Origin: Bergeyella zoohelcum ATCC 43767
GTDB lineage: Bacteria > Bacteroidota > Bacteroidia > Flavobacteriales > Weeksellaceae
Assembly (NCBI RefSeq): GCF_000301075.1
Contig: NZ_JH932293.1
Coordinates: 2,159,053-2,223,052 of the forward strand
Direction: 5' to 3'
DNA: 64,000 bases
Shown: in pieces, positions 8,190 to 50,763 of the stretch
How the letters are laid out: every line of letters begins with the position of its first letter
How positions within the stretch are numbered: position 1 is the first letter of the stretch
Translations under genes and position numbers: made by a program
Notes under the pieces: model-generated
The model's input: the letters and a program-made list of their open reading frames with translations, nothing else
What the model was told of the DNA's origin: nothing
Database searches by the model: none

Positions 8190-8232
8190 ATACCGTTAAG
8201 AGATTGAGTGTCTGTTTTAGTTAAATTAAGAA

Positions 8233-8718
8233 TTATTGCACTTCTACTCTTCCATGAATATTTCCCGCAAGCATAGGACCATTTTCAGTTTGCATCACAA
8301 AGCTTACCTTATATTTACCATCGGTAAGTTTTTTCACAGAACATTGACCAATGGACAAATTACTATAGTACTGCGTGCTATTTCCTCTTTTTACAAAGTA
8401 AAAGCTGTCCGTAATACTCATTTGTCTGGTATTATTGAGGATATTATAGTCCCCATCAATATTCGTGTAGTTGTACGGATGTGAAAGCACTATTTTCACT
8501 TCTCTCTCGGCATCTTCATCTTTAATGTAAAAATGAAAAGCATGGATGTTATCATCCGTAGAATTTTGTGCTTTTGCAGAAGTGAGCTTAGCTGAAACAA
8601 TGGACATGCCCACGCCATCTATTTTAATCTTTCCCAGCTCAGGAGTTTCGTCTTTTTTACATTGAACCACGAGCAATGCTGTGAATACGAGTGCCAAAAA
8701 TGAATAAATGTGTTTCAT
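8233..8718 (-). CDS. Small lipoprotein of unknown function
   Basis: 161 residues. The N-terminus is a lipoprotein signal with lipobox LVVQC (Cys20), followed by charged KKDE, so the protein is probably anchored to an outer or inner membrane face. The rest (IKIDGVGMSIVSAKLTSAKA and later beta-rich segments) matches no family I recognise. It has its own likely promoter at 8733-8740, and the ABC-F gene follows 43 nt downstream. Confidence 0.7.
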   Translation of the reverse strand: MKHIYSFLALVFTALLVVQCKKDETPELGKIKIDGVGMSIVSAKLTSAKAQNSTDDNIHAFHFYIKDEDAEREVKIVLSHPYNYTNIDGDYNILNNTRQMSITDSFYFVKRGNSTQYYSNLSIGQCSVKKLTDGKYKVSFVMQTENGPMLAGNIHGRVEVQ

Positions 8719-18916: not shown

Positions 18917-20062
18917 ATGGAATTTCCTATACTTCTTATCGCCATCATTACTTTGGCGTTGATTTTTGATTATATCAATGGATTTCATGATGCTGCCAAT
19001 TCTATTGCCACCATCGTATCTACTAAAGTACTTACCCCTTTTCAGGCGGTACTTTGGGCGGCCGTTTGGAATTTTGCGGCGTTTTTCATTGCGGCATACA
19101 TCATCGGTGAATTTAAAATAGGTAACACCATTGCCAAGACTGTAAATGAAAACTTTATTAATTTAGAAGTGATATTTGCGGGATTAGTAGCGGCTATTGC
19201 TTGGAATCTGCTTACTTGGTGGTTTGGTATCCCTTCTTCCTCTTCGCATACGCTCATCGGAGGTTTTTTAGGGGCTGCTCTCATGCATGCCCTGATGCAG
19301 GATTATCACCATATCGCGGTAACGCAGCCTGATTTATCCATGTTTGAAAAGCTAAAACTGGCATTTCAGATGCTTTTTACACAAGATGTAGTGAAATACA
19401 GCAAAGTAATTCCTATCTTCTTATTCATTTTTTTAGCACCGGTAATAGGTATGATTGCTTCGGTAATCATTACGCTTATCATTGTCAATATTTGCCGAAA
19501 ATCCAATCCTCATAAAGCGGAATCGGCATTTAAGAAAATGCAGCTTTTTTCTTCAGCACTTTTCAGTCTTGGGCATGGTCTTAATGATGCTCAAAAGGTA
19601 ATGGGAATCATTGGTGCAGCCGTAATTTACTATCATGTGAATATGATAGGAGGGAATGACCCTTATGCACTTCTTCCGCATGCTGAAAGATTTGATTTCT
19701 TTACCCAAGATTATATTTGGGTACCTTTGGTGTCATTTATTGCCATTGGTTTAGGAACCATGAGTGGTGGATGGAAAATAGTGAAAACCATGGGGACTAA
19801 AATTACTAAAGTAACATCTCTAGAAGGCGTAAGTGCCGAAACAGCAGGAGCCATGACGCTTTTCCTTACGGATCATTTTGGTATTCCAGTTTCTACCACG
19901 CATACCATTACGGGATCTATCATCGGGGTAGGGCTTACCAAGAGAATATCTGCCGTAAGGTGGGGAATCACTGTAAGCCTACTTTGGGCATGGGTGCTTA
20001 CCATTCCTATTTCCGCTATAGTGGCAGCACTCTGTTACTTGGGAGTTACTTATTTTGGATAA
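18917..20062 (+). CDS. pit: Inorganic phosphate transporter, PiT family
   Basis: 381 residues from the ATG at 18917 (a TTG two codons earlier is less likely). About ten membrane helices. The duplicated PiT signature is visible as GFHDAANSIATIVST near the N-terminus and GHGLNDAQKVMGIIG in the second half, and SSSHTLIGG and STTHTITGS form the paired internal repeats. It imports phosphate (or metal phosphate) driven by a cation gradient. It follows the DUF47 partner and ends before a clear terminator. Confidence 0.94.
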   Translation: MEFPILLIAIITLALIFDYINGFHDAANSIATIVSTKVLTPFQAVLWAAVWNFAAFFIAAYIIGEFKIGNTIAKTVNENFINLEVIFAGLVAAIAWNLLTWWFGIPSSSSHTLIGGFLGAALMHALMQDYHHIAVTQPDLSMFEKLKLAFQMLFTQDVVKYSKVIPIFLFIFLAPVIGMIASVIITLIIVNICRKSNPHKAESAFKKMQLFSSALFSLGHGLNDAQKVMGIIGAAVIYYHVNMIGGNDPYALLPHAERFDFFTQDYIWVPLVSFIAIGLGTMSGGWKIVKTMGTKITKVTSLEGVSAETAGAMTLFLTDHFGIPVSTTHTITGSIIGVGLTKRISAVRWGITVSLLWAWVLTIPISAIVAALCYLGVTYFG

Positions 20063-39621: not shown

Positions 39622-42480
39622 CTACACATACGCTTCTATTGGTGCACAAGTACAGATAAGGTTTCTATCTCCATACGCATCATCTACTCTAGATACAGAA
39701 GCGAAGAATTTATTCTCTCTCACCCAATCTAAAGGATAAGCTGCTTTTTCACGGCTGTACGGCTTGTCCCAAGTATCCGAAAGAAGTACCTGCTCTGTAT
39801 GTGGTGCATTTTTCATTACATTATTTTTAGCATCCACTTTTCCTGCTACTATTTCTTCAATCTCCTGCTTGATGCTAATTAGAGCGTCTGCAAATCTATC
39901 TATCTCTGCTTTACTTTCAGATTCTGTAGGCTCTATCATGAGGGTTCCTGCCACTGGGAAAGACACCGTAGGTGCGTGGAAGCCATAGTCCATTAATCTC
40001 TTCGCTACATCCCCCACTTCTATTCCTGCTGCTTTGTACTGACGGAAATCCACGATACATTCATGTGCTACTCTACCGTTGGCATTCGCATACAAGATAG
40101 GATAATGCTCTGCTAATCTTTCTTTGAGGTAGTTGGCATTAAGTATCGCATGTTCTGTTGCTTTTTTAAGCCCCTCATTTCCGAGCATTTTAATATAAGC
40201 ATAAGAAATATTGCACACCAACGCCGAGCCGTAAGGTGCTGAAGAAATGGCATCAATAGCATTACTTCCTCCAGTAGCGATATTTGGGTTACTTGGTAAG
40301 AAAGGAACGAGATGCTCTGCCACACAGATAGGCCCTACACCAGGCCCTCCACCTCCGTGAGGGATGGCAAAAGTCTTATGTAAATTGAGGTGACAAACAT
40401 CTGCCCCGATGTTCCCTGGACTGGTAAATCCTACCTGAGCATTCATATTGGCTCCATCCATATACACCTGTCCGCCATGTTGATGGATGAGTTCTGTAAT
40501 TTCACGGATATTGGCATCAAAGAAACCATAAGTAGATGGATAGGTAATCATGGCCGCCGAAAGATTTTCGCTGTGCTGCTCTGCTTTTGCTTTTAAATCT
40601 TCAAAATCAATTTCTCCGTTTTCTAGATTTTTTACCACTACCACTTTCATCCCTGCCATCACTGCAGATGCTGGATTGGTACCGTGTGCCGACTGTGGAA
40701 TGAGGACGATGTTTCTATGCCCTTGCCCATTGGCTTTGTGATACTCTCTGATGACCATAAGCCCTGCATATTCTCCTTGAGCTCCCGAGTTCGGCTGGAG
40801 TGAAGTTCCTGCAAAGCCTGTGATTTTTGCCAAATCTTTTTCTAATTCTTTGAGCATTTCTATATACCCTTGTGCCTGAGCTACTGGTACAAATGGATGT
40901 ACGCTTCCCCATTCTGACCAAGAAAGAGGCAACATCTCTGCAGCGGCATTGAGTTTCATGGTACAAGAACCTAAAGAAATCATGGAGTGCGTAAGCGAAA
41001 GGTCTTTTCTTTCCAGCATTTTGATATATCTCATCAGTTCCGTTTCGGTATGATAAGAGTTAAATACCTCTTCGGTAAGAATTTCATCTGTTCTCAATAC
41101 TTCAGCAGGAAGTGTAAGCTCCTCATTCAGTACCAATTTGAATGCTTGTTTTTGCTTAAAAGAAGCAAAGGCATCCATCAGTTCATTAAGTTTGTCTAAA
41201 GTAGAAGTTTCATTGATAGAAACGCTAATTACCCCTTCGGTAAAATAATTAAGGTTTATTTTTCTGCCCTCCATTATTCTTCTGATGTCCATTTTTTCAT
41301 CTTCATGGACGAAAATTTTCACCGTATCAAAAGAAGGCTCTTCAGCCACCTGATAGCCCAATGCTCCTAAACCTTTAGAAAGGGCATTTACTTTATAATT
41401 AATTTGATTTGCGATGAACTCCAAACCTTTAGGCCCGTGATATACCACATACATAGAAGCCATTACGGCCAATAACACTTGGGCGGTACAGATATTAGAA
41501 GTAGCTTTTTCTCTTTTGATGTGCTGTTCTCTGGTTTGTAGTGCCATACGGAGTGCTCTCTTTCCGTACATATCTTGGGAAACGCCTATGATACGCCCTG
41601 GAATATCTCTCTTGTACGAATCTTTACAAGCAAAAAATGCAGCGTGAGGCCCACCAAATCCCATTGGAATACCGAATCTCTGTGTAGTTCCCACGGCACA
41701 GTCGGCACCCATTTCAGCTGGAGATTTTAGCTTTACCAATGCCAATGGGTCACAAGCTACTGCCACCTGTACATTATTATTTTTATAATTTGCAATGATA
41801 GAAGTATAATCTACCACCGCTCCATTTTTCCCTGGATACTGAAGCAACGCCCCAAAGAAAGCATCATCTAACTGTACAGTCTCATGATTACCGATTACTA
41901 TTTCTATTCCTAAACCATCTGCTTTGGTCTTTAGCACCGCAATGGTTTGTGGCAATACCCAATCTGAAACGAAGAATTTATTTACTTCTGCTTTTTTCTG
42001 CTCTTTGGTTCTATTGGCAAAGAACATATTCATCGCTTCGGAAGCGGCAGTTCCTTCATCGAGGAGGGAAGCATTTGCCAATGCAAAGCCTGTGAGACTG
42101 GCTACAATGGTCTGATAGTTAAGCAAAGCCTCTAATCTCCCCTGGGCAATTTCCGCTTGATAAGGCGTATATGCCGTGTACCAACTTGGATTTTCGAAAA
42201 TATTTCTTTGAATTACTGGCGGTAAGATGGTGCCATGGTATCCGAAACCGATATAGTTATCATACTGAGCATTTTTCTGAGATAAATTCTTAGAATGCTG
42301 AAGCATCTCAAATTCTGACAGAGGTGCCGAAAGCTCTAAATCTTTCTCCAAACGAATAGCCGAAGGAATGGTTTGTTCTAAAAGTTCTTCCACAGATGCC
42401 ACACCTATCTTGCTGAGCATCGCATTTTTGTCATTTTCATTCAATGAAATATGACGATTCACAAATTGAGTAGTATTCAT
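39622..42480 (-). CDS. gcvP: Glycine dehydrogenase (decarboxylating), P-protein
   Basis: 952 residues, the long single-chain P-protein formed from fused P1- and P2-like halves. The PLP lysine is in LNLHKTFAIPHGGGGPG, near residue 700. It decarboxylates glycine and passes the aminomethyl group to the lipoyl H-protein. gcvT and gcvH are not in the window. No glycine riboswitch is visible; a promoter lies close upstream. Confidence 0.96.
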   Translation of the reverse strand: MNTTQFVNRHISLNENDKNAMLSKIGVASVEELLEQTIPSAIRLEKDLELSAPLSEFEMLQHSKNLSQKNAQYDNYIGFGYHGTILPPVIQRNIFENPSWYTAYTPYQAEIAQGRLEALLNYQTIVASLTGFALANASLLDEGTAASEAMNMFFANRTKEQKKAEVNKFFVSDWVLPQTIAVLKTKADGLGIEIVIGNHETVQLDDAFFGALLQYPGKNGAVVDYTSIIANYKNNNVQVAVACDPLALVKLKSPAEMGADCAVGTTQRFGIPMGFGGPHAAFFACKDSYKRDIPGRIIGVSQDMYGKRALRMALQTREQHIKREKATSNICTAQVLLAVMASMYVVYHGPKGLEFIANQINYKVNALSKGLGALGYQVAEEPSFDTVKIFVHEDEKMDIRRIMEGRKINLNYFTEGVISVSINETSTLDKLNELMDAFASFKQKQAFKLVLNEELTLPAEVLRTDEILTEEVFNSYHTETELMRYIKMLERKDLSLTHSMISLGSCTMKLNAAAEMLPLSWSEWGSVHPFVPVAQAQGYIEMLKELEKDLAKITGFAGTSLQPNSGAQGEYAGLMVIREYHKANGQGHRNIVLIPQSAHGTNPASAVMAGMKVVVVKNLENGEIDFEDLKAKAEQHSENLSAAMITYPSTYGFFDANIREITELIHQHGGQVYMDGANMNAQVGFTSPGNIGADVCHLNLHKTFAIPHGGGGPGVGPICVAEHLVPFLPSNPNIATGGSNAIDAISSAPYGSALVCNISYAYIKMLGNEGLKKATEHAILNANYLKERLAEHYPILYANANGRVAHECIVDFRQYKAAGIEVGDVAKRLMDYGFHAPTVSFPVAGTLMIEPTESESKAEIDRFADALISIKQEIEEIVAGKVDAKNNVMKNAPHTEQVLLSDTWDKPYSREKAAYPLDWVRENKFFASVSRVDDAYGDRNLICTCAPIEAYV

Positions 42481-42506
42481 AGAATTTTATGTAATCTAAT
42501 TTTCCG

Positions 42507-42537
42507 TAAAGGTACGAATTGTAAAAAAGATGAGCAA
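42507..42537 (-). promoter_or_regulatory. gcvP promoter
   Basis: On the minus strand TTG (42535-42537), 20 nt, TACCTTTA (42507-42514), one base off the TAnnTTTG consensus. Confidence 0.45.
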
Positions 42538-42584
42538 AATAATTAACTATTGGCTGTTAGCTGTTAAGCACATTCCTCCCCCAG

Positions 42585-42601
42585 CCCCTCCGAAGGAGGG
42601 G
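42585..42601. repeat. GC-rich hairpin beyond the distal array end
   Basis: CCCCTCC and GGAGGGG with a GAA loop, in an otherwise AT-rich gap 50 nt outside the last full CRISPR repeat. It could end array transcription, although no T run follows on the minus strand. Confidence 0.45.
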
Positions 42602-42782
42602 AGCTTATAGTTTCTCAACAAAATATCCTTCTGTGTAAAACCTACATGAAGTTGTGATTACCCTCCAACATGAGAGCAGTTCCAACACCGCTATATGCTT
42701 TGGCTGATGAAATACCGTTGTGATTACCCTCCAACATGAGAGCAGTTCCAACTTGATACACCACTTCTTCATCAAGGAAAAA

Positions 42783-44535
42783 GTTGTGATTACCCTCCAA
42801 ATGCTTTGCATTCATGAGTTCCTTTGAAAAACAAATAAAACTTCACGAATAAAATGAGAGCAGTTCCAACACTTACGAAATCCTCACGATGCTACAGGGC
42901 GTTGTTATTACCCTCCAAATGCTTTGCATTCATGAGTTCCTTTGAAAAAACAATAAAAACTCACGAATAAAATGAGAGCAGTTCCAACGAGAGATTAAGT
43001 GCTGGTAATTACATAATAGTTGTGATTACCCTCCAAATACTTCGTATTCATGAGTTCCTTTGAAAAAACAAATAAAAAGTCACGAATAAAATGAGAGCAG
43101 TTCCAACTTCTTTTTGGAACTTATCTTCTCCATACCTGTTGTTATTACCCTCCAAATACTCTGTATTCATGAGTTCCTTTAAAAACAAATAAAAAACTCA
43201 CGAATAAAATGAGAGCAGTTCCAACTTCTTTTCATTGAAGATATTGATAGAGTGTGTTGTTATTACCCTCCAAACGCTTTGCATTCATGAGTTCCTTTAA
43301 AAACAAATAAAAAACTCACGAATAAAATGAGAGCAGTTCCAACGGAATGTAGAAAGTCGTATGAATATGACCTGTTGTTATTACCCTCCAAATGCTTTGC
43401 ATTCATGAGTTCCTTTGAAAAACAATAAAGACTCACGAATAAAATGAGAGCAGTTCCAACAAGACTTTACGATCCAACGATCGTAGCACAGTTGTGATTA
43501 CTCTCCAAAATGAGAGCAGTTCCAACTCATCATATTCTAGAAACTCCATTTTCCCTGTTGTGATTACCCTCCAAATGCTTTGCATTCATGAGTTCCTTTG
43601 AAAAACAATAAAGACTCACGAATAAAATGAGAGCAGTTCCAACAATATCGCAGATGGATTAGTTATGAATATAGTTGTGATTACCCTCCAAATGCTTTGC
43701 ATTCATGAGTTCCTTTGAAAACAAATAAAAAACTCACGAATAAAATGAGAGCAGTTCCAACCGTTAGAGAATACGATACTCAAAAAAAAGGGTTGTTATT
43801 ACCCTCCAACATGAGAGCAGTTCCAACTATACCATCTCTCCAACAATTTACAGTAGAGTTGTGATTACCCTCCAAATGCTTTGCATTCATGAGTTCCTTT
43901 GAAAAAACAATAAAAACTCACGAATAAAATGAGAGCAGTTCCAACGTGTTGCTGCATGGGAATGTCCTAAGTGGTGTTGTTATTACCCTCCAAATACTCT
44001 GTATTCATGAGTTCCTTTGAAAACAAATAAAAACTTCACGAATAAAATGAGAGCAGTTCCAACGATTTTCAAAGAAAATCTAATCCCGACTTAGTTGTGA
44101 TTACCCTCCAAATGCTTTGCATTCATGAGTTCCTTTGAAAAAACAATAAAAACTCACGAATAAAATGAGAGCAGTTCCAACGTGTTGCTGCATGGGAATG
44201 TCCTAAGTGGTGTTGTTATTACCCTCCAAATACTCTGTATTCATGAGTTCCTTTGAAAACAAATAAAAACTTCACGAATAAAATGAGAGCAGTTCCAACG
44301 ATTTTCAAAGAAAATCTAATCCCGACTTAGTTGTGATTACCCTCCAAATGCTTTGCATTCATGAGTTCCTTTGAAAAAACAATAAAAACTCACGAATAAA
44401 ATGAGAGCAGTTCCAACTAGCTCTTCTGTTATTATATCCCTCCGACAGTTGTGATTACCCTCCAAATGCTTTGCATTCATGAGTTCCTTTAAAAACAAAT
44501 AAAAACTTCACGAATAAAATGAGAGCAGTTCCAAC
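42783..44535 (-). repeat. Long-form (88-nt) CRISPR direct repeats with internal insert
   Basis: Within this span 14 of 16 repeats carry about 52 extra bases between CCTCCAA and AAATGAGAG, the loop of the normal repeat hairpin. The insert has two further hairpins. One pairs ATTCATGA with TCACGAAT, with one G-U. A small one pairs ATGC with GCAT around TTT. In the repeats at 43019, 43138, 43976 and 44212 the small stem is ATAC/GTAT, a compensatory change, and at 43256 it is ACGC/GCAT, which pairs as G-U in the transcript. Long repeats are known from this type VI-B locus; the covariation is my observation. Confidence 0.85.
43858..44329 (-). repeat. Exact 236-bp tandem duplication inside the array
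   Basis: 43858-44093 (two long repeats and two spacers) is followed by an apparently identical 44094-44329. The duplicated spacers start GTGTTGCTGCATGGG and GATTTTCAAAGAAAA. Confidence 0.95.
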
Positions 44536-45195
44536 GTTGGGAGAGAGTTATCTCGCCATCTATTAGTTGTGATTACCCTCCAACATGAGAGCAGTTCCAA
44601 CTAGGACTAGTAAATCTCCTGGTGCAAAAATGTTGTGATTACCCTCCAACATGAGAGCAGTTCCAACATCCCGTTAAAAATTGACAGCTCCTACATAGTT
44701 GTGATTACCCTCCAAAATGAGAGCAGTTCCAACCTTCTCGGTAGATTGGCGGGCATCCCCTTAGTTGTGATTACCCTCCAAAATGAGAGCAGTTCCAACT
44801 ACTGAAGTTCTATATGTACGAGCTCCTGTGTTGTGATTACCCTCCAAAATGAGAGCAGTTCCAACTATGTATGCTTCGGATATTATGGTTTTGGAGTTGT
44901 GATTACCCTCCAAAATGAGAGCAGTTCCAACAAACCAAACCTTTCTAAGGAAGAAATGCTGGTTGTGATTACCCTCCAAAATGAGAGCAGTTCCAACAAC
45001 CTAAGTCTCCTACCCCTCTTATAAAATGTTGTGATTACCCTCCAAAATGAGAGCAGTTCCAACGTGATTTCGTACCGCATTATAACCCAATTCGTTGTGA
45101 TTACCCTCCAAAATGAGAGCAGTTCCAACTTTCATTTTTTAAACCCTTTTTTATCTATTGTTGTGATTACCCTCCAAAATGAGAGCAGTTCCAAC

Positions 45196-45253
45196 CTCAA
45201 TGCTAAAAAATGAGTGTATAAAACTGTCTATCAGGAGTGTAATATCCTATATT
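45196..45253 (-). other. Array leader (58 nt)
   Basis: The gap between the cas13b stop codon and the first repeat. It is AT-rich and contains the weak inverted repeat AGGA-N8-TCCT (45235-45250). I see no TAnnTTTG box and no terminator, so the array may be transcribed from the csx27 promoter. Confidence 0.5.
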
Positions 45254-48200
45254 TTACTTTATCAGTGCTTCTTTTTCCTTTTTAAATACCTCAGCAAAAT
45301 ACTCGGCATAGGTTTTTTCTTTTTCTATTTTGCCGTATTTTTCTTGACAATAGTCCCAAAATTCTTTTTTAGGTAATTGGTTGTGTGCAAATTTATTACG
45401 AATATAGGTTAAAACAAAAGCTTTTTGTTCTAAATCGGTTGCTTCTTGTTTTAGTTGGTTAATGTTCACATCTTCAGGTTCAGTATTTAAGTTGAATACC
45501 TTATAGCTCTCCACATCTTCATTTTTAAGTTGCTTTAAAAGTCCGTTGAGAATGTAGTATTTGAAATTTTGATTATCCCCTTTTTTTAATATTTCCTTAT
45601 CTTTTACCTTTTCCAAAATATATTCCTCTATAAGGTGGACTTCCTTCAACAGTTCTTCCCTTCTCACTTTTTCATATTGCTCTATTTCTCTTTCCACCAC
45701 ATACGGATAATTTTCCTCTTCCTTACTCTCTTTGATTAGAAACGCCTGCCATTCTATATTTTCCTCATATTTTAAGAAAGCTTGAACCCTTTGGTCGTAT
45801 TCATATTTTATGAAATCTCCTACATTTTTTAGCTTTACATTTTCTACCGTAATTTTTCCGTCACACAACTTTAAATCAACGGTTTTGTTCCAAATATAGT
45901 TAGTATTTCGCTCGCCCGTTTGTCTGGCTCTCTCCTGATTTCCTAAGCGTTCCTCCCGAGATTGATACAAATCTTCTAACGAAAACTGATCGATGCTATC
46001 CTGCTTGAATACCGATTTGAAAATATGTTTTGCCATCAAAAGTGTAAACACATCGTTTTTCTTTTGTTGGTAGATTTTAGTTTTTCGTTTTCGGTCTGCT
46101 TGTTTTTTTTCCAATTCTACAAGCGGATAATTTTCAGTATCATAAAATGTCTGAAAATTCTGATATTCCTTGTAATACCTAAACCAATCGGCAAAAAGAG
46201 CTTCATTTCCTTTAAAAGTTTTTCCTTTGATTATCGTAGGTTTTTCATCCATAAAGCCCCGCTCTAAAAAGATAGGATACCCCAATATAGACTGAACCCG
46301 AGCATCTAATTCTTTGTGAGTATAATTTTGTTTTTTCAAAAATTTAAAACACTCATTTTCTACCTTTTTGAAGACTTTATTTTCGGATTTAAAGTTTTCG
46401 GCTTGTTGCACCAACCCACTGATGTATTCCAACCGTTTATCTAAATAACAAGTGTAAAATTGGTACAAATATTTTTGTTGAAAATATCCTCCCAACTTAA
46501 AAGGTAAATGCTGAAATACTTTTTCAGGCAAAAGATTTTTCAACTCCTCTTTACATTGCTCATAATACGCCAACGATTTTTGTAACAAGCTGTGTTGCTC
46601 CCCTTTCCATTCGTTTTTGAAATCGGTAGGCATAAAGCGTTTGATGTCATTCGCCAACCAAACCGCTACTTTTCCTTTTTCTCGATAATAAAGAACTTCT
46701 TTTCGTGCAGGAGCTTCAGGGTACTTTCGTTTAAGGTTATCTTTTAAATATTGTTTATGATTTCTATCTCTGACTTTATTTATCTCCCTATTTTTATCTT
46801 GATAAGCAATAAAATCATTATATTCTTTTTCACGAACCGTTTGTTCATCTTTTAATTTTTGTAGAATGTTTTGCTCTTGCTTCAAATCTTTTATCAATTT
46901 CTCTTTATCAATAGCAGTAGAATTTCCGTCTTGATAAGGTTTTAATATCTTGGCATTGGTATCTTTATCTATGATTTGCTGGATTTGAGCTTGAATTTTT
47001 CCTACGATTTTCTTTTCTAACTCTTTTCCAATTTCCTTTCTTAATTCTTTTTCACCTTTCTTTTCTAACTTTTCTTTCTTTTTCTCCCATTTATCGAAAA
47101 ACTCATACAAAATGGAATGAATGTCATTCATACTCAGATAAGCCGTGGGTTGCCCACCGAAAACAATAGCTTCTTTTGGATTGCTTTCATTGATTGGCAC
47201 TATTTCTTCTATAATGTTCTGGATAGACGGCTTGCTGGCTTTTCTTTGCTTGAGCTGATGGGCTTTTACGGCTTTATCTACTTCTGAAACATATTGTTGG
47301 TTAAGCAATTTCACTTTTATACCAATTTTCCCTGCGACAGGCTGTTTCTCTCTGTCCAAAATACTACCCGCGATAGGAAAATCTTTATCATTAACGGAAA
47401 TATTTTCCTTAGGAAAATCATAATTGGGGTTAGGAAAAATTTCCCAATAGTGTTCTCTATCTTCATTGGTTTCGGTATTTTTTATAAACAATGCTTTTTT
47501 ATGTTCCAATTCCGAAAGCCTTCCGAAAACGGTGATTTTTTCTTTTATTCTTCGGTCAGAAATCAGATTTTCTTTAGGGCGAGAATCGTGAAGATAATTC
47601 CCTAAATGCACTTGAAAACGAAGCGTAGGGAACTGAGCAAACTCATCTAAAAATCGAATGGCAAAATAATTGAATTTATCTTCGTAACGCTTGCGAATCA
47701 CTGGATGAATTACCTGCTCTTCTTCCATTGTCCCTACATCGCCATTGTTCTCTTTTAGGTATTCATTCCAATCTTCGATGAAAGTTTTTTGTACATCTTC
47801 GCTCAAATTCTGATAGACCACATCGGGTACTTTGCTCAATTCATCAAGCATCTGCATCATTAGAGTTTCTTTGGCATAAACGGAAAGCTGTTCAGCATTT
47901 TCTGCCTCACCATAGTTGATTTCAGCCGTTCTCACTTTTCGTTTCAATTTTTTGTAAGCCAAATGCGAGAAAATTTCGTGCGTAGCCATAAAACAAATGC
48001 TGTTTTTTCCATGGCTCACCGTTGCTTCAGATACCGTTGCTTCATCGATAACCGTAGCCTTAAACCCTGCTATTTTAGATTTGAATGCGTGTATTTCTTG
48101 TTTGGTGAGAAACAAAGAAAGCAGGAAGACTACTCCGTTTTTCGAAATTGGAATTTTCAAATCGCCTTCTTCTTGCTGAGGATCACTTTTGGTATTGTAC

Positions 48201-48928
48201 TTTGCTTTGCTGGATTCTTTTAGGCTATCTTTTTTCTTATCGATATAAACATCAAAAGCATCATTATAAATCGCTGCTATTAAATCATCCCTTTTATCAC
48301 TGTATTTGAATGGAGCTACCAATTCTTTCTCTCCTCTTTCTCTTTGATTTCTACGCTTCTCCTCTATTTTTCTTGCTGTGTCTCTTAGATATTCTAATTT
48401 CTTTTGGCATAAAATATCCAATTGTTTTTCTATGCTTTTTTTCAGGATTTCTTTTGTTTTATCGGTTTTTACTTTTTTCTTTTTTACCGTTAAAACCGTG
48501 CTTTTCAGCATCTCATCCAATACGCCAAATATTTCATCTGTAATTTCTACCTCTCCGTGTTCCTTATGCGTATAAAAGTTTCTTAAATCTCTTACGGCTT
48601 TTATAATGCCTTTAAAATTCTTTTTAAAATTTTCTTTTCGTTCTTTTATAGGAACTTCTTTTTTATCCAAAAGACGAGCCATAGGGAAATAATCAGAAAG
48701 CAATTTCACATACCTTTCGTATTCCACTAATGAAATATTTTCCTTAAAGATAGCATCAAAAAAATTCTCCGAAGTGTACTCTTTACCTTTTAATCTTTTT
48801 CCCAATTCTCTAAATACACTATCTGTATTTTCCATTGCTGCATTGAAATAACCCGCAAAATACGATTTATCTTGTGGTTTAAAAGGGTTGTAATAAATAT
48901 TATTCCCCAAAGATGTTTTGTTTTCCAT
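45254..48928 (-). CDS. cas13b: Cas13b RNA-guided RNase (type VI-B effector)
   Basis: 1224 residues. Two HEPN RNase motifs stand near the ends: RNFYTH (R116, H121) and RNKFAH (R1177, H1182). This terminal placement and spacing are those of Cas13b from Bergeyella zoohelcum. The middle is rich in Lys/Glu helices (for example 620-760), with the lid and linker regions that bind and process crRNA. With a crRNA whose repeat lies 3' of the spacer, it cuts matching single-stranded RNA and, once active, other RNA nearby. It starts 9 nt after csx27 and ends 58 nt before the array. No transmembrane or DNA-cutting domain is present. It is complete, with no frameshift. Confidence 0.98.
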   Translation of the reverse strand: MENKTSLGNNIYYNPFKPQDKSYFAGYFNAAMENTDSVFRELGKRLKGKEYTSENFFDAIFKENISLVEYERYVKLLSDYFPMARLLDKKEVPIKERKENFKKNFKGIIKAVRDLRNFYTHKEHGEVEITDEIFGVLDEMLKSTVLTVKKKKVKTDKTKEILKKSIEKQLDILCQKKLEYLRDTARKIEEKRRNQRERGEKELVAPFKYSDKRDDLIAAIYNDAFDVYIDKKKDSLKESSKAKYNTKSDPQQEEGDLKIPISKNGVVFLLSLFLTKQEIHAFKSKIAGFKATVIDEATVSEATVSHGKNSICFMATHEIFSHLAYKKLKRKVRTAEINYGEAENAEQLSVYAKETLMMQMLDELSKVPDVVYQNLSEDVQKTFIEDWNEYLKENNGDVGTMEEEQVIHPVIRKRYEDKFNYFAIRFLDEFAQFPTLRFQVHLGNYLHDSRPKENLISDRRIKEKITVFGRLSELEHKKALFIKNTETNEDREHYWEIFPNPNYDFPKENISVNDKDFPIAGSILDREKQPVAGKIGIKVKLLNQQYVSEVDKAVKAHQLKQRKASKPSIQNIIEEIVPINESNPKEAIVFGGQPTAYLSMNDIHSILYEFFDKWEKKKEKLEKKGEKELRKEIGKELEKKIVGKIQAQIQQIIDKDTNAKILKPYQDGNSTAIDKEKLIKDLKQEQNILQKLKDEQTVREKEYNDFIAYQDKNREINKVRDRNHKQYLKDNLKRKYPEAPARKEVLYYREKGKVAVWLANDIKRFMPTDFKNEWKGEQHSLLQKSLAYYEQCKEELKNLLPEKVFQHLPFKLGGYFQQKYLYQFYTCYLDKRLEYISGLVQQAENFKSENKVFKKVENECFKFLKKQNYTHKELDARVQSILGYPIFLERGFMDEKPTIIKGKTFKGNEALFADWFRYYKEYQNFQTFYDTENYPLVELEKKQADRKRKTKIYQQKKNDVFTLLMAKHIFKSVFKQDSIDQFSLEDLYQSREERLGNQERARQTGERNTNYIWNKTVDLKLCDGKITVENVKLKNVGDFIKYEYDQRVQAFLKYEENIEWQAFLIKESKEEENYPYVVEREIEQYEKVRREELLKEVHLIEEYILEKVKDKEILKKGDNQNFKYYILNGLLKQLKNEDVESYKVFNLNTEPEDVNINQLKQEATDLEQKAFVLTYIRNKFAHNQLPKKEFWDYCQEKYGKIEKEKTYAEYFAEVFKKEKEALIK

Positions 48929-48937
48929 AGTTCGTTT

Positions 48938-49597
48938 TTATTTTTTATTGTGTGTTAATTCTGCATAGTAAAGTCCGAAAATTCTGTCTGTCATTTTTAC
49001 CCGAAACCATTGGGCTATAACCGATGATAATCCACCTAGAACGAAGGTTCCTATAATAATTGTAATGATTTTCTCACTCAGCGAACAATCATTCATAAAA
49101 AAGGATGCTAATAAAAAGATAACACTCACGGGAAGTACAAATAACGAAAGCGTTACGATGTTCCGAAACAAGAAATAAATACTCTGAAAATTTTTTGCTT
49201 GGGATATTTTGCCTTGTGCCTCTAAATAATAATACGCTGTATCAAAGACACTTCCATTACTGATATTTTCTGTTACCGAAATTCCTTTATTTGTTCTGTA
49301 AATTTCTTTCAAATCAGGAAGAATTTCAGTGATGTACTCGTCATTTTTCATTTTGTCCATAGGCGTACAAGCCAATTTCTTATACCACTTTCTCTTTATC
49401 AACCAAAATGTGATGATATGAATCAAGCATCCTATAAATAGGGCAATGGCAAAAAACAACAGACCGTCGCTAAGGTTTCCTGCTGTAATGAGTGGGGCTT
49501 TCCCAAAAACATATTCCGCTGAAAAATTTATCAGCTCAATCATAATGACTCCCGGAACTACAAAGGAGAGCAATTCGTAAATAGATAATCTGTCCAT
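48938..49597 (-). CDS. csx27: Csx27, membrane accessory protein of type VI-B1
   Basis: 219 residues. I predict four membrane helices (about 9-27, 44-70, 140-168 and 178-200) with a cytoplasmic-looking charged loop between the second and third (KRKWYKKLACTPMDKMKNDEY). Csx27 marks subtype VI-B1 and has been reported to dampen Cas13b interference; how it does so at the membrane is unclear. It is the first gene of the csx27-cas13b-array unit, with a good -7 box 21 nt upstream. Confidence 0.95.
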   Translation of the reverse strand: MDRLSIYELLSFVVPGVIMIELINFSAEYVFGKAPLITAGNLSDGLLFFAIALFIGCLIHIITFWLIKRKWYKKLACTPMDKMKNDEYITEILPDLKEIYRTNKGISVTENISNGSVFDTAYYYLEAQGKISQAKNFQSIYFLFRNIVTLSLFVLPVSVIFLLASFFMNDCSLSEKIITIIIGTFVLGGLSSVIAQWFRVKMTDRIFGLYYAELTHNKK

Positions 49598-49618
49598 AAA
49601 CTAAAAATTATAATTCTA

Positions 49619-49626
49619 CAAATATA
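49619..49626 (-). promoter_or_regulatory. -7 box of the csx27-cas13b operon
   Basis: TATATTTG on the minus strand. The element 19 nt further up reads TGG, a weak TTG. Transcription would start about 15 nt before csx27. Confidence 0.5.
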
Positions 49627-50515: not shown

Positions 50516-50588
50516 TGACTCGGCTGGGATTCGAACCCAGGACCCATACATTAAAAGTGTATTGCTCTACCAGCTGAGCTACCGAGTC
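50516..50588 (-). tRNA. tRNA-Lys (anticodon UUU), copy 1
   Basis: 73 nt; acceptor GACTCGG with CCGAGTC, anticodon loop CTTTTAA, T-loop GTTCGAATC. Identical in sequence to the copy at 50691-50763. Last of three tRNA genes in the transcript. Confidence 0.95.
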
Positions 50589-50598
50589 GGTTTTTTGG

Positions 50599-50682
50599 TG
50601 CCTGCGACTGGACTCGAACCAGCACATCCTTAAGGATACCACCCCCTCAAGATGGCGTGTCTACCAATTTCACCACACAGGC
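50599..50682 (-). tRNA. tRNA-Leu (anticodon GAG)
   Basis: 84 nt; acceptor GCCTGTG with CGCAGGC, anticodon stem CCATC/GGTGG around loop TTGAGGG, a long variable arm, and T-loop GTTCGAGTC. Between the two tRNA-Lys genes. Confidence 0.93.
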
Positions 50683-50690
50683 TATTGTTG

Positions 50691-50763
50691 TGACTCGGCT
50701 GGGATTCGAACCCAGGACCCATACATTAAAAGTGTATTGCTCTACCAGCTGAGCTACCGAGTC
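50691..50763 (-). tRNA. tRNA-Lys (anticodon UUU), copy 2
   Basis: 73 nt, same sequence as 50516-50588. First gene of the cluster, next to the promoter. Confidence 0.95.

Follow-up and report, generated by a model that had tools for sequence, protein, structure and literature searches.

The long repeats of the Bergeyella zoohelcum Cas13b array probably derive from a mobile hairpin element

A type VI-B1 CRISPR system with the effector BzCas13b was reportedly described from Bergeyella zoohelcum by Smargon et al. in 2017. We analyzed a 64,000-nt stretch of B. zoohelcum ATCC 43767 (NZ_JH932293.1, positions 2,159,053 to 2,223,052; "the window") that contains the system's array, in which half of the repeats carry about 52 extra nucleotides. 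We think it very probable that this is the native BzCas13b locus and that its long repeats arose when a mobile hairpin element of ~49 nt entered one repeat at the TTT of its loop and this repeat was then copied through the array.

In the available text of PMC8209922, crRNA processing, target RNA cleavage, and repression by Csx27 are described for VI-B systems, with CRISPR RNAs (crRNAs) of 66 nt and 118 nt; the 118-nt form has a composite repeat. In the general scheme, Cas13b binds the repeat hairpin and trims its 3' end, with the guide spacer on the 5' side. A matching RNA turns the two HEPN motifs into a general RNase, which Csx27 damps. The system and the existence of its long repeats were already known, and BzCas13b is a standard RNA-targeting tool; the literature that we searched, some of it in partial text, describes the long direct repeat without an origin, and no published origin for the insert was found there.

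The locus and its mosaic array

The effector gene cas13b (45254-48928, minus strand) encodes a protein of 1224 amino acids. It matches the NCBIfam model NF038190 (VI_Cas13b) at 838.8 bits (cut-off 150), PADLOC agrees, and it differs from the B. zoohelcum Cas13b of PDB entry 6AAY only at residue 1177, where 6AAY has the engineered R1177A. Neither HEPN motif is disrupted (RNFYTH at 116, RNKFAH at 1177), and these R-x4-H motifs lie near the two ends of the protein, as in type VI-B1. The accessory gene, 9 nt away, is csx27 (48938-49597, minus strand; 219 amino acids; NF040557, 288.4 bits with a cut-off of 65; Csx27 by PADLOC). It is not Csx28, and it has no similarity to the Csx28 of locus L033. 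On the other side of cas13b, a 58-nt gap (45196-45253) leads to the array, which is also on the minus strand. Judged by its sequence, this is the native type VI-B1 BzCas13b immune locus of B. zoohelcum. The first-pass annotation of this DNA had proposed the same arrangement, the type VI-B1 assignment with Csx27, and that the system was not new. The coordinates and NCBIfam bear out the arrangement; NF038190, NF040557, and PADLOC agree on the type; and the comparison that it suggested, of the 1224-residue effector with known Cas13b proteins, returned BzCas13b itself.

Spacing and strand make it plausible that csx27, cas13b, and the array form one transcript. The annotation had also placed a -7 box ahead of csx27. 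A match resembling such a box, TATATTTG, is indeed present at 49619-49626 (minus strand), but it carries no weight. The motif TAnnTTTG occurs 84 times in the window, versus 82.2 occurrences expected, and because such matches come at chance frequency, we dropped the promoter reading of this site.

The array (42651-45195, minus strand) has 28 repeats and 27 spacers, all of exactly 30 nt. Half of the repeats (14) measure 36 nt, which together with the 30-nt spacers fits type VI-B1; the remaining 14 measure 87-89 nt. Read from the leader, short and long repeats follow each other as SSSSSSSSSSLLLLLLSLLSLLLLLLSS, with six switches. A long repeat is a short repeat with ~52 extra nucleotides in its loop: CTCAN-TTT-GRAGG in the short form becomes CTCAN-TTT[...GCA]TTT-GRAGG in the long form, with TTT on both sides of the insert. 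The repeat has TTT in a single place, the loop run at positions 17-20. The copies of the insert diverge by 7.7% on average, and the two halves of the repeat by 0% and 3.1%; adjacent copies of the insert are no closer to each other than to the rest. Units 14-15 are identical to units 12-13, which leaves 25 distinct spacers. The annotation had handled the array as an ordinary one, and it reported neither the inserts nor this duplication.

The ten repeats nearest the leader (1-10) are all of the 36-nt form and, with the spacers between them, occupy 44566-45195. Six long repeats follow, at 44448-44535 (repeat 11; its element, counted with both TTT, spans 44464-44518), 44330-44417 (repeat 12; element 44346-44400), 44212-44299 (repeat 13; 44228-44282), 44094-44181 (repeat 14, where the copied pair of units begins; 44110-44164), 43976-44063 (repeat 15; 43992-44046), and 43858-43945 (repeat 16; 43874-43928). 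Short repeat 17 (43792-43827) separates these from long repeats 18 (43674-43761; element 43690-43744) and 19 (43557-43643; 43573-43626). After short repeat 20 (43491-43526) come long repeats 21 (43374-43460; element 43390-43443), 22 (43256-43343; 43272-43326), 23 (43138-43225; 43154-43208), 24 (43019-43107; 43035-43090), 25 (42901-42988; 42917-42971), and 26 (42783-42870; 42799-42853). The leader-distal end (42651-42752) consists of two more short repeats, 27 and 28, and the intervening spacer.

We also noticed a palindrome resembling CCCCTCC-TT-CGGAGGGG directly past the array, at about 42575-42602; a consensus scan of 42450-42720 called no terminator-like site. Three consecutive tRNA genes (50516-50763, minus strand) lie ~0.9 kb upstream of csx27.

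Relatives of the insert in other arrays and outside CRISPR loci

A survey of 320 family genomes found Cas13b in 12; in wider draws of 395 genomes each, four genomes were over the cut-off, counting B. zoohelcum itself. Arrays could be read beside Cas13b at 18 loci (17 by pattern, plus L036). The array pattern had no match at L039, L064, or L065, and the short contigs with L017/L045 and L047 lay outside this survey. Long repeats in several copies occur in four of the 18 arrays: the one in the window and those of three genomes of a genus, g30, which is probably Riemerella, going by its repeat. Long forms make up 17 of 26 full-length repeats in genome G308, 8 of 23 in G310, and 4 of 9 in G309, whose Cas13b is in two parts ~2 kb apart. 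In a fifth array (L044, from a metagenome-assembled genome (MAG) of Flavobacteriaceae), only the last of 21 repeats carries the insert. The L044 effector is 42% identical to BzCas13b in the best segment, and a Csx27-like gene is present. The remaining 13 arrays gave no match to the element models described below (12 were searched with model R1, and L037 with R3 only).

The five insert-bearing arrays are interrupted at the identical base, and they belong to both VI-B subtypes. The system in G308 is type VI-B2 (Csx28, 261.5 bits), and its effector is closest to PbuCas13b (6dtd); it aligns to BzCas13b over only 219 amino acids, at 29% identity. In a tree of 13 effectors, those of G308 and G310 are on a separate long branch. 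Among 16 other arrays, G308 has the short repeat most like that of B. zoohelcum, with 33 of 36 positions in agreement; L044 agrees at 31 of 36, and the B. cardium repeat, which was outside that list, has 32 agreements and one gap. When B. zoohelcum and g30 inserts were compared, the mean local score was 22.3 versus 13.2 (standard deviation 2.4), a value reached in 6 of 2000 shuffles. By this comparison, the two sets of inserts are related beyond chance.

Relatives of the insert are also found away from CRISPR arrays. When blastn was used with the long repeat as the query, all 14 full-length matches in the B. zoohelcum genome were in the array, with only short partial matches elsewhere, and the three g30 genomes likewise had full-length matches in their arrays and partial matches otherwise. 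A search pattern derived from the array inserts matched 9 of the 320 family genomes, and the same pattern written backwards, as a control, matched none. The nine are the four genomes with multi-copy arrays and five genomes without any Cas13b match. Each of these five has one copy, and these copies are full-length relatives of the insert outside CRISPR arrays.

Covariance models gave a broader view. R1 was built from 26 copies, four of them dispersed; R2 was built from array inserts alone; and R3 from the B. zoohelcum inserts alone. At E <= 0.01, R1 matched 29 of 52 family genomes, or 25 of 48 after removing the four array genomes, in a set that was deliberately rich in genera matched by the pattern. 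On a second set of genomes, R1 hit 15 of 40 from the family versus 7 of 40 from other families at the same limit (p = 0.08), and 8 of 40 versus 1 of 40 at E <= 1e-6 (p = 0.03, with the limit picked post hoc). R2 gave 29 matches at E <= 0.01, and every one of 19 dispersed loci, all selected with R1 or the pattern, had one or more of them. With R3, the top score went to a dispersed copy from genome G199 (48.2 bits), above the best g30 array insert (39.6 bits). We viewed the flanks of 30 dispersed copies by eye: none lies within a CRISPR repeat, and the copies that we inspected are intergenic or within transposase genes.

In the B. zoohelcum genome itself, IS982-like transposase genes are interrupted twice, by a ~48-nt element at the identical point of the gene (L109 1667-1714, at C1:607166, and L110 1754-1801, at C1:1400753). 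In L109 the gene is open on either side of the insert; in L110 its front half is frameshifted. An IS982-like gene of genome G302 is interrupted as well, with three identically flanked copies in L108, of which two were translated. An IS256-like transposase gene has one common site of insertion in four genomes (L103 in G312, L106 in G311, L114 in G297, and L116 in G313), and in L114 the insert breaks the frame with both halves of the gene still open. Another copy lies in a probable DDE transposase gene (L115 in G196). Pfam matches are over the cut-offs for L109, L114, and L108, and below them for L115. Homologues annotated as IS982 (in Leptospira) and IS256 (in Flammeovirga) are uninterrupted and lack exactly this stretch. 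These scattered non-coding copies, found at unrelated positions across many genomes, along with occupied and empty sites (short and long repeats, and the IS982 and IS256 genes), resemble miniature inverted-repeat transposable elements (MITEs).

One idea is that the copies within transposase genes are bypassed during translation or act as tiny introns. In L109 and L114, neither half of the gene is broken, and all translated sites have the same orientation. However, other copies are decayed, and at IS982 the codons before the insert and at its end differ (by eye). We also considered integron-like cassette sites, given the clustering of copies on one strand, and dropped them because copies lie inside transposase genes.

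Three further matches deserve mention. R1 has a match on contig C3 of the B. zoohelcum genome, the long repeat weakly matches a site near C1:1384728 (85% over 32 nt), and an element model weakly matches the window at 18952-19001 on the plus strand (17.4 bits, E = 0.015).

Alternative histories and roles of the insert

Did the element enter these arrays once or several times? We compared 8 B. zoohelcum inserts, 14 g30 inserts, and 21 dispersed copies. For all 8 B. zoohelcum inserts, the nearest relative is a dispersed copy (mean best identity 0.79) and not one of the g30 inserts (0.73). Likewise, 13 of the 14 g30 inserts resemble a dispersed copy (0.77) more than a B. zoohelcum insert (0.72). 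These sequence comparisons lead us to favor repeated, separate insertions, although without proof because the elements are short. The shared position is explainable because the repeat has TTT only in the loop run at 17-20. More broadly, the loops of VI-B repeats might be recurrent landing sites of one family of mobile hairpins belonging to the bacterial family of Bergeyella, with three or more lineages hit at the same TTT (Bergeyella VI-B1, g30 VI-B2, and the Flavobacteriaceae MAG VI-B1). In two of these lineages, multiplication of the invaded repeat might have made it a lasting component of the array, with the element carried along in guide RNAs without destroying immunity. We give this broader picture an even chance.

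Alternatively, there might have been one ancient insertion, followed by exchange of the array, but not the effector, between VI-B1 and VI-B2 loci of the family. This would account for the identical insertion base in all five arrays and for the near-identity of the short repeats of B. zoohelcum and G308 despite their very different effectors. It would also fit the lack of copies outside the array in the g30 array genomes, and the L044 copy, which is nearest to a g30 array insert (0.80, versus 0.77 for dispersed copies and 0.72 for B. zoohelcum). But it does not explain why nearly all inserts of the two genera are nearer to dispersed copies than to those of the other genus, and with a single TTT in the repeat, repeated hits at that place are expected. 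We view a single ancient insertion as possible but doubtful.

A separate issue is whether the insert is a tolerated passenger, as we propose, or a selected part of the guide RNA, such as a brake or a protein-binding site. The inserts fold better than shuffled sequences (mean z of -3.70 for 11 distinct B. zoohelcum inserts, -3.02 for 17 from G308, -3.08 for 8 from G310, and -2.47 for 4 from G309), and they appear to protect the stem of the repeat. In the B. zoohelcum long repeats, the predicted pairing of the repeat stem is 0.972, versus 0.902 with shuffled inserts; the corresponding predictions are 0.860 and 0.662 for G308, 0.890 and 0.749 for G310, and 0.873 and 0.607 for G309, and just 1 of 17 long repeats in G308 has stem pairing under 0.5. 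In these models, the inserts fold independently and leave the repeat hairpin intact. Between B. zoohelcum and g30, three positions in the long stem are changed on both sides with pairing kept (by eye, in folds of the insert only). Furthermore, three g30 genomes retain the long form, and in G308 it accounts for all of the seven newest full-length repeats. However, a mobile palindrome would fold likewise. Also, the inserts diverge by 8-14%, versus 0-2% and 3-5% for the halves of the repeat, and the newest 10 repeats in the window and the newest 14 full-length repeats in G310 are short. A selected role seems unlikely to us, slightly more so than a single ancient insertion.

Finally, we reject the notion that long repeats are fused or degenerate repeat-spacer-repeat units: by length arithmetic, a deletion could yield 88 nt from 102 nt, but related ~50-nt sequences lie in transposase genes and between genes, including in genomes without a Cas13b match.

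Several observations weigh against an inserted mobile element in a working immune locus. No transposase for the element was found, none having been sought, and no movement was seen. The ends of the dispersed copies are not tidy: as cut, 10 of 21 have TTT/TTT, 2 have ATT/ATT, and 9 have unequal triplets; a target duplication is likely, but not a clean one. The element is not confined to the family, given the R1 matches in 7 of 40 genomes outside it and p = 0.08 for the difference at E <= 0.01. In the three g30 array genomes, R1 finds array copies exclusively (17, 4, and 8 matches). The 20 matches of R3 at E <= 0.05 cover just 14 of 22 element loci; none of another 20 loci matched R3, though L044 and L117 carry copies that R1 detects. 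Covariation within the B. zoohelcum array is slight, with double changes at one pair of a small stem in 3 of 11 distinct rows, and RNAalifold counted no covarying pair within either genus. Lastly, the spacers had no convincing targets. With the whole array stretch as the query, the best phage match had E = 0.8 (4 records at E <= 2 and 88 at E <= 10); the best plasmid match had E = 9 (12 records), and the best match in the B. zoohelcum genome besides the array itself had E = 0.11, all three being at chance level. Among viral contigs, no close relatives of Cas13b were found, and neither the insert nor the short repeat matched as an exact pattern.

We still consider an insertion that was copied through the array to be the best explanation, and it suggests the following history. 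One repeat would have been hit by the element. The invaded repeat would then have been copied by uptake of new spacers and by recombination, with occasional scarless loss of the insert. The array would be transcribed from the minus strand, probably jointly with csx27 and cas13b. Because the insert lies in the loop and folds on itself, the stem of the repeat would survive and long guides could still be made.

The first repeat may be a special case. The leader (45196-45253, minus strand) is predicted to pair with about two-thirds of the bases of the first repeat, which would undo its stem, so that no useless guide arises there. With the 58-nt leader, the predicted pairing of the first repeat's own stem is 0.001, versus 0.728 with shuffled leaders. 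For leaders of 58, 65, 100, and 180 nt, the predicted values are 0.001-0.004, versus 0.66-0.75 with shuffled leaders; 6/300, 2/300, 6/300, and 4/150 shuffled leaders, respectively, were equally low. In the g30 arrays, the leader runs directly into a shortened first repeat (AATACCCT ... AGGGTATT; L033 at ~8192-8320, and matching places in L034 and L038). By inspection, this truncated repeat is a long repeat, with its 3' half opposite a complementary stretch of the leader. It cannot simply template new full repeats because the first spacers differ in the three genomes.

New spacers would probably be acquired via another Cas1 of the genome, such as the type II Cas1 that is present with Cas9. Our search, which covered Cas1 (cas2 was not searched for), found no Cas1 match within the window, in keeping with type VI-B1, and four in the B. 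zoohelcum genome. In the available text of PMC8092290, gene deletion in F. columnare shows that spacer uptake relies on the Cas1 of another system. The type II locus of B. zoohelcum (L042 6167-12850) has a 1415-amino-acid Cas9, a type II Cas1, and two ~45-nt repeats that are 77 nt apart. The genome also has another CRISPR array, with units of 64-65 nt, that adjoins a 347-amino-acid Cas1 (L040 2436-4075; L041 16126-16541), and a Cas1 match on contig C2 has the same score as this 347-amino-acid protein.

Comparison with known systems

Two aspects of our proposal were not found in the literature searched, parts of which were seen as partial text: that the long repeat would be an insertion that multiplied to half of the array, and that one element family would occur in arrays of both VI-B subtypes. 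A CRISPR survey of Riemerella anatipestifer (PMC5006608) describes, in its available text, an orphan locus, and it discarded repeats of over 48 nt by rule. If the long repeat is a mobile insertion, then Cas13b guides may have room for an extra hairpin of ~50 nt in the repeat loop, which would be useful for adding aptamers, and the insert would be a natural marker for the copying of repeats through arrays. It would also bear on a question left open in the portion of PMC8092290 that we consulted, namely how VI-B repeats of other lengths could come from an acquisition machinery that acts as a length ruler.

Insertions of mobile elements in CRISPR repeats have been described before: PMC4852346, in the part available, lists 59 cases of insertion sequences or MITEs. 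Those cases have a mobile element inside the direct repeat with a short target duplication, as the long repeats here probably do. But those insertions split an array in two, whereas in B. zoohelcum every second repeat on average is of the invaded form, and the fold of the repeat is predicted to be kept. The predicted pairing of the leader also has a precedent. The accessible text of PMC13187072 reports leader-repeat hairpins in type VI arrays, in which base-pairing between the leader and the first repeat eliminates the hairpin of that repeat; that work is experimental and concerns the VI-B2 system of P. gingivalis, while the pairing in B. zoohelcum is a prediction.

Also close are the arrays of the VI-B2 systems of g30 (G308, G309, and G310), whose repeat is almost identical and is interrupted at the same point. 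These systems have Csx28 instead of Csx27, and the effector (in G308) is closest to PbuCas13b. Compared to the described VI-B1 system of B. zoohelcum (6AAY and, as far as its available text goes, PMC8209922), the locus has the same effector except for the engineered residue, Csx27, and the 36-nt repeat; the 66-nt and 118-nt guides are those described in PMC8209922. The system itself is no different; what we add is a likely origin for its long repeats.

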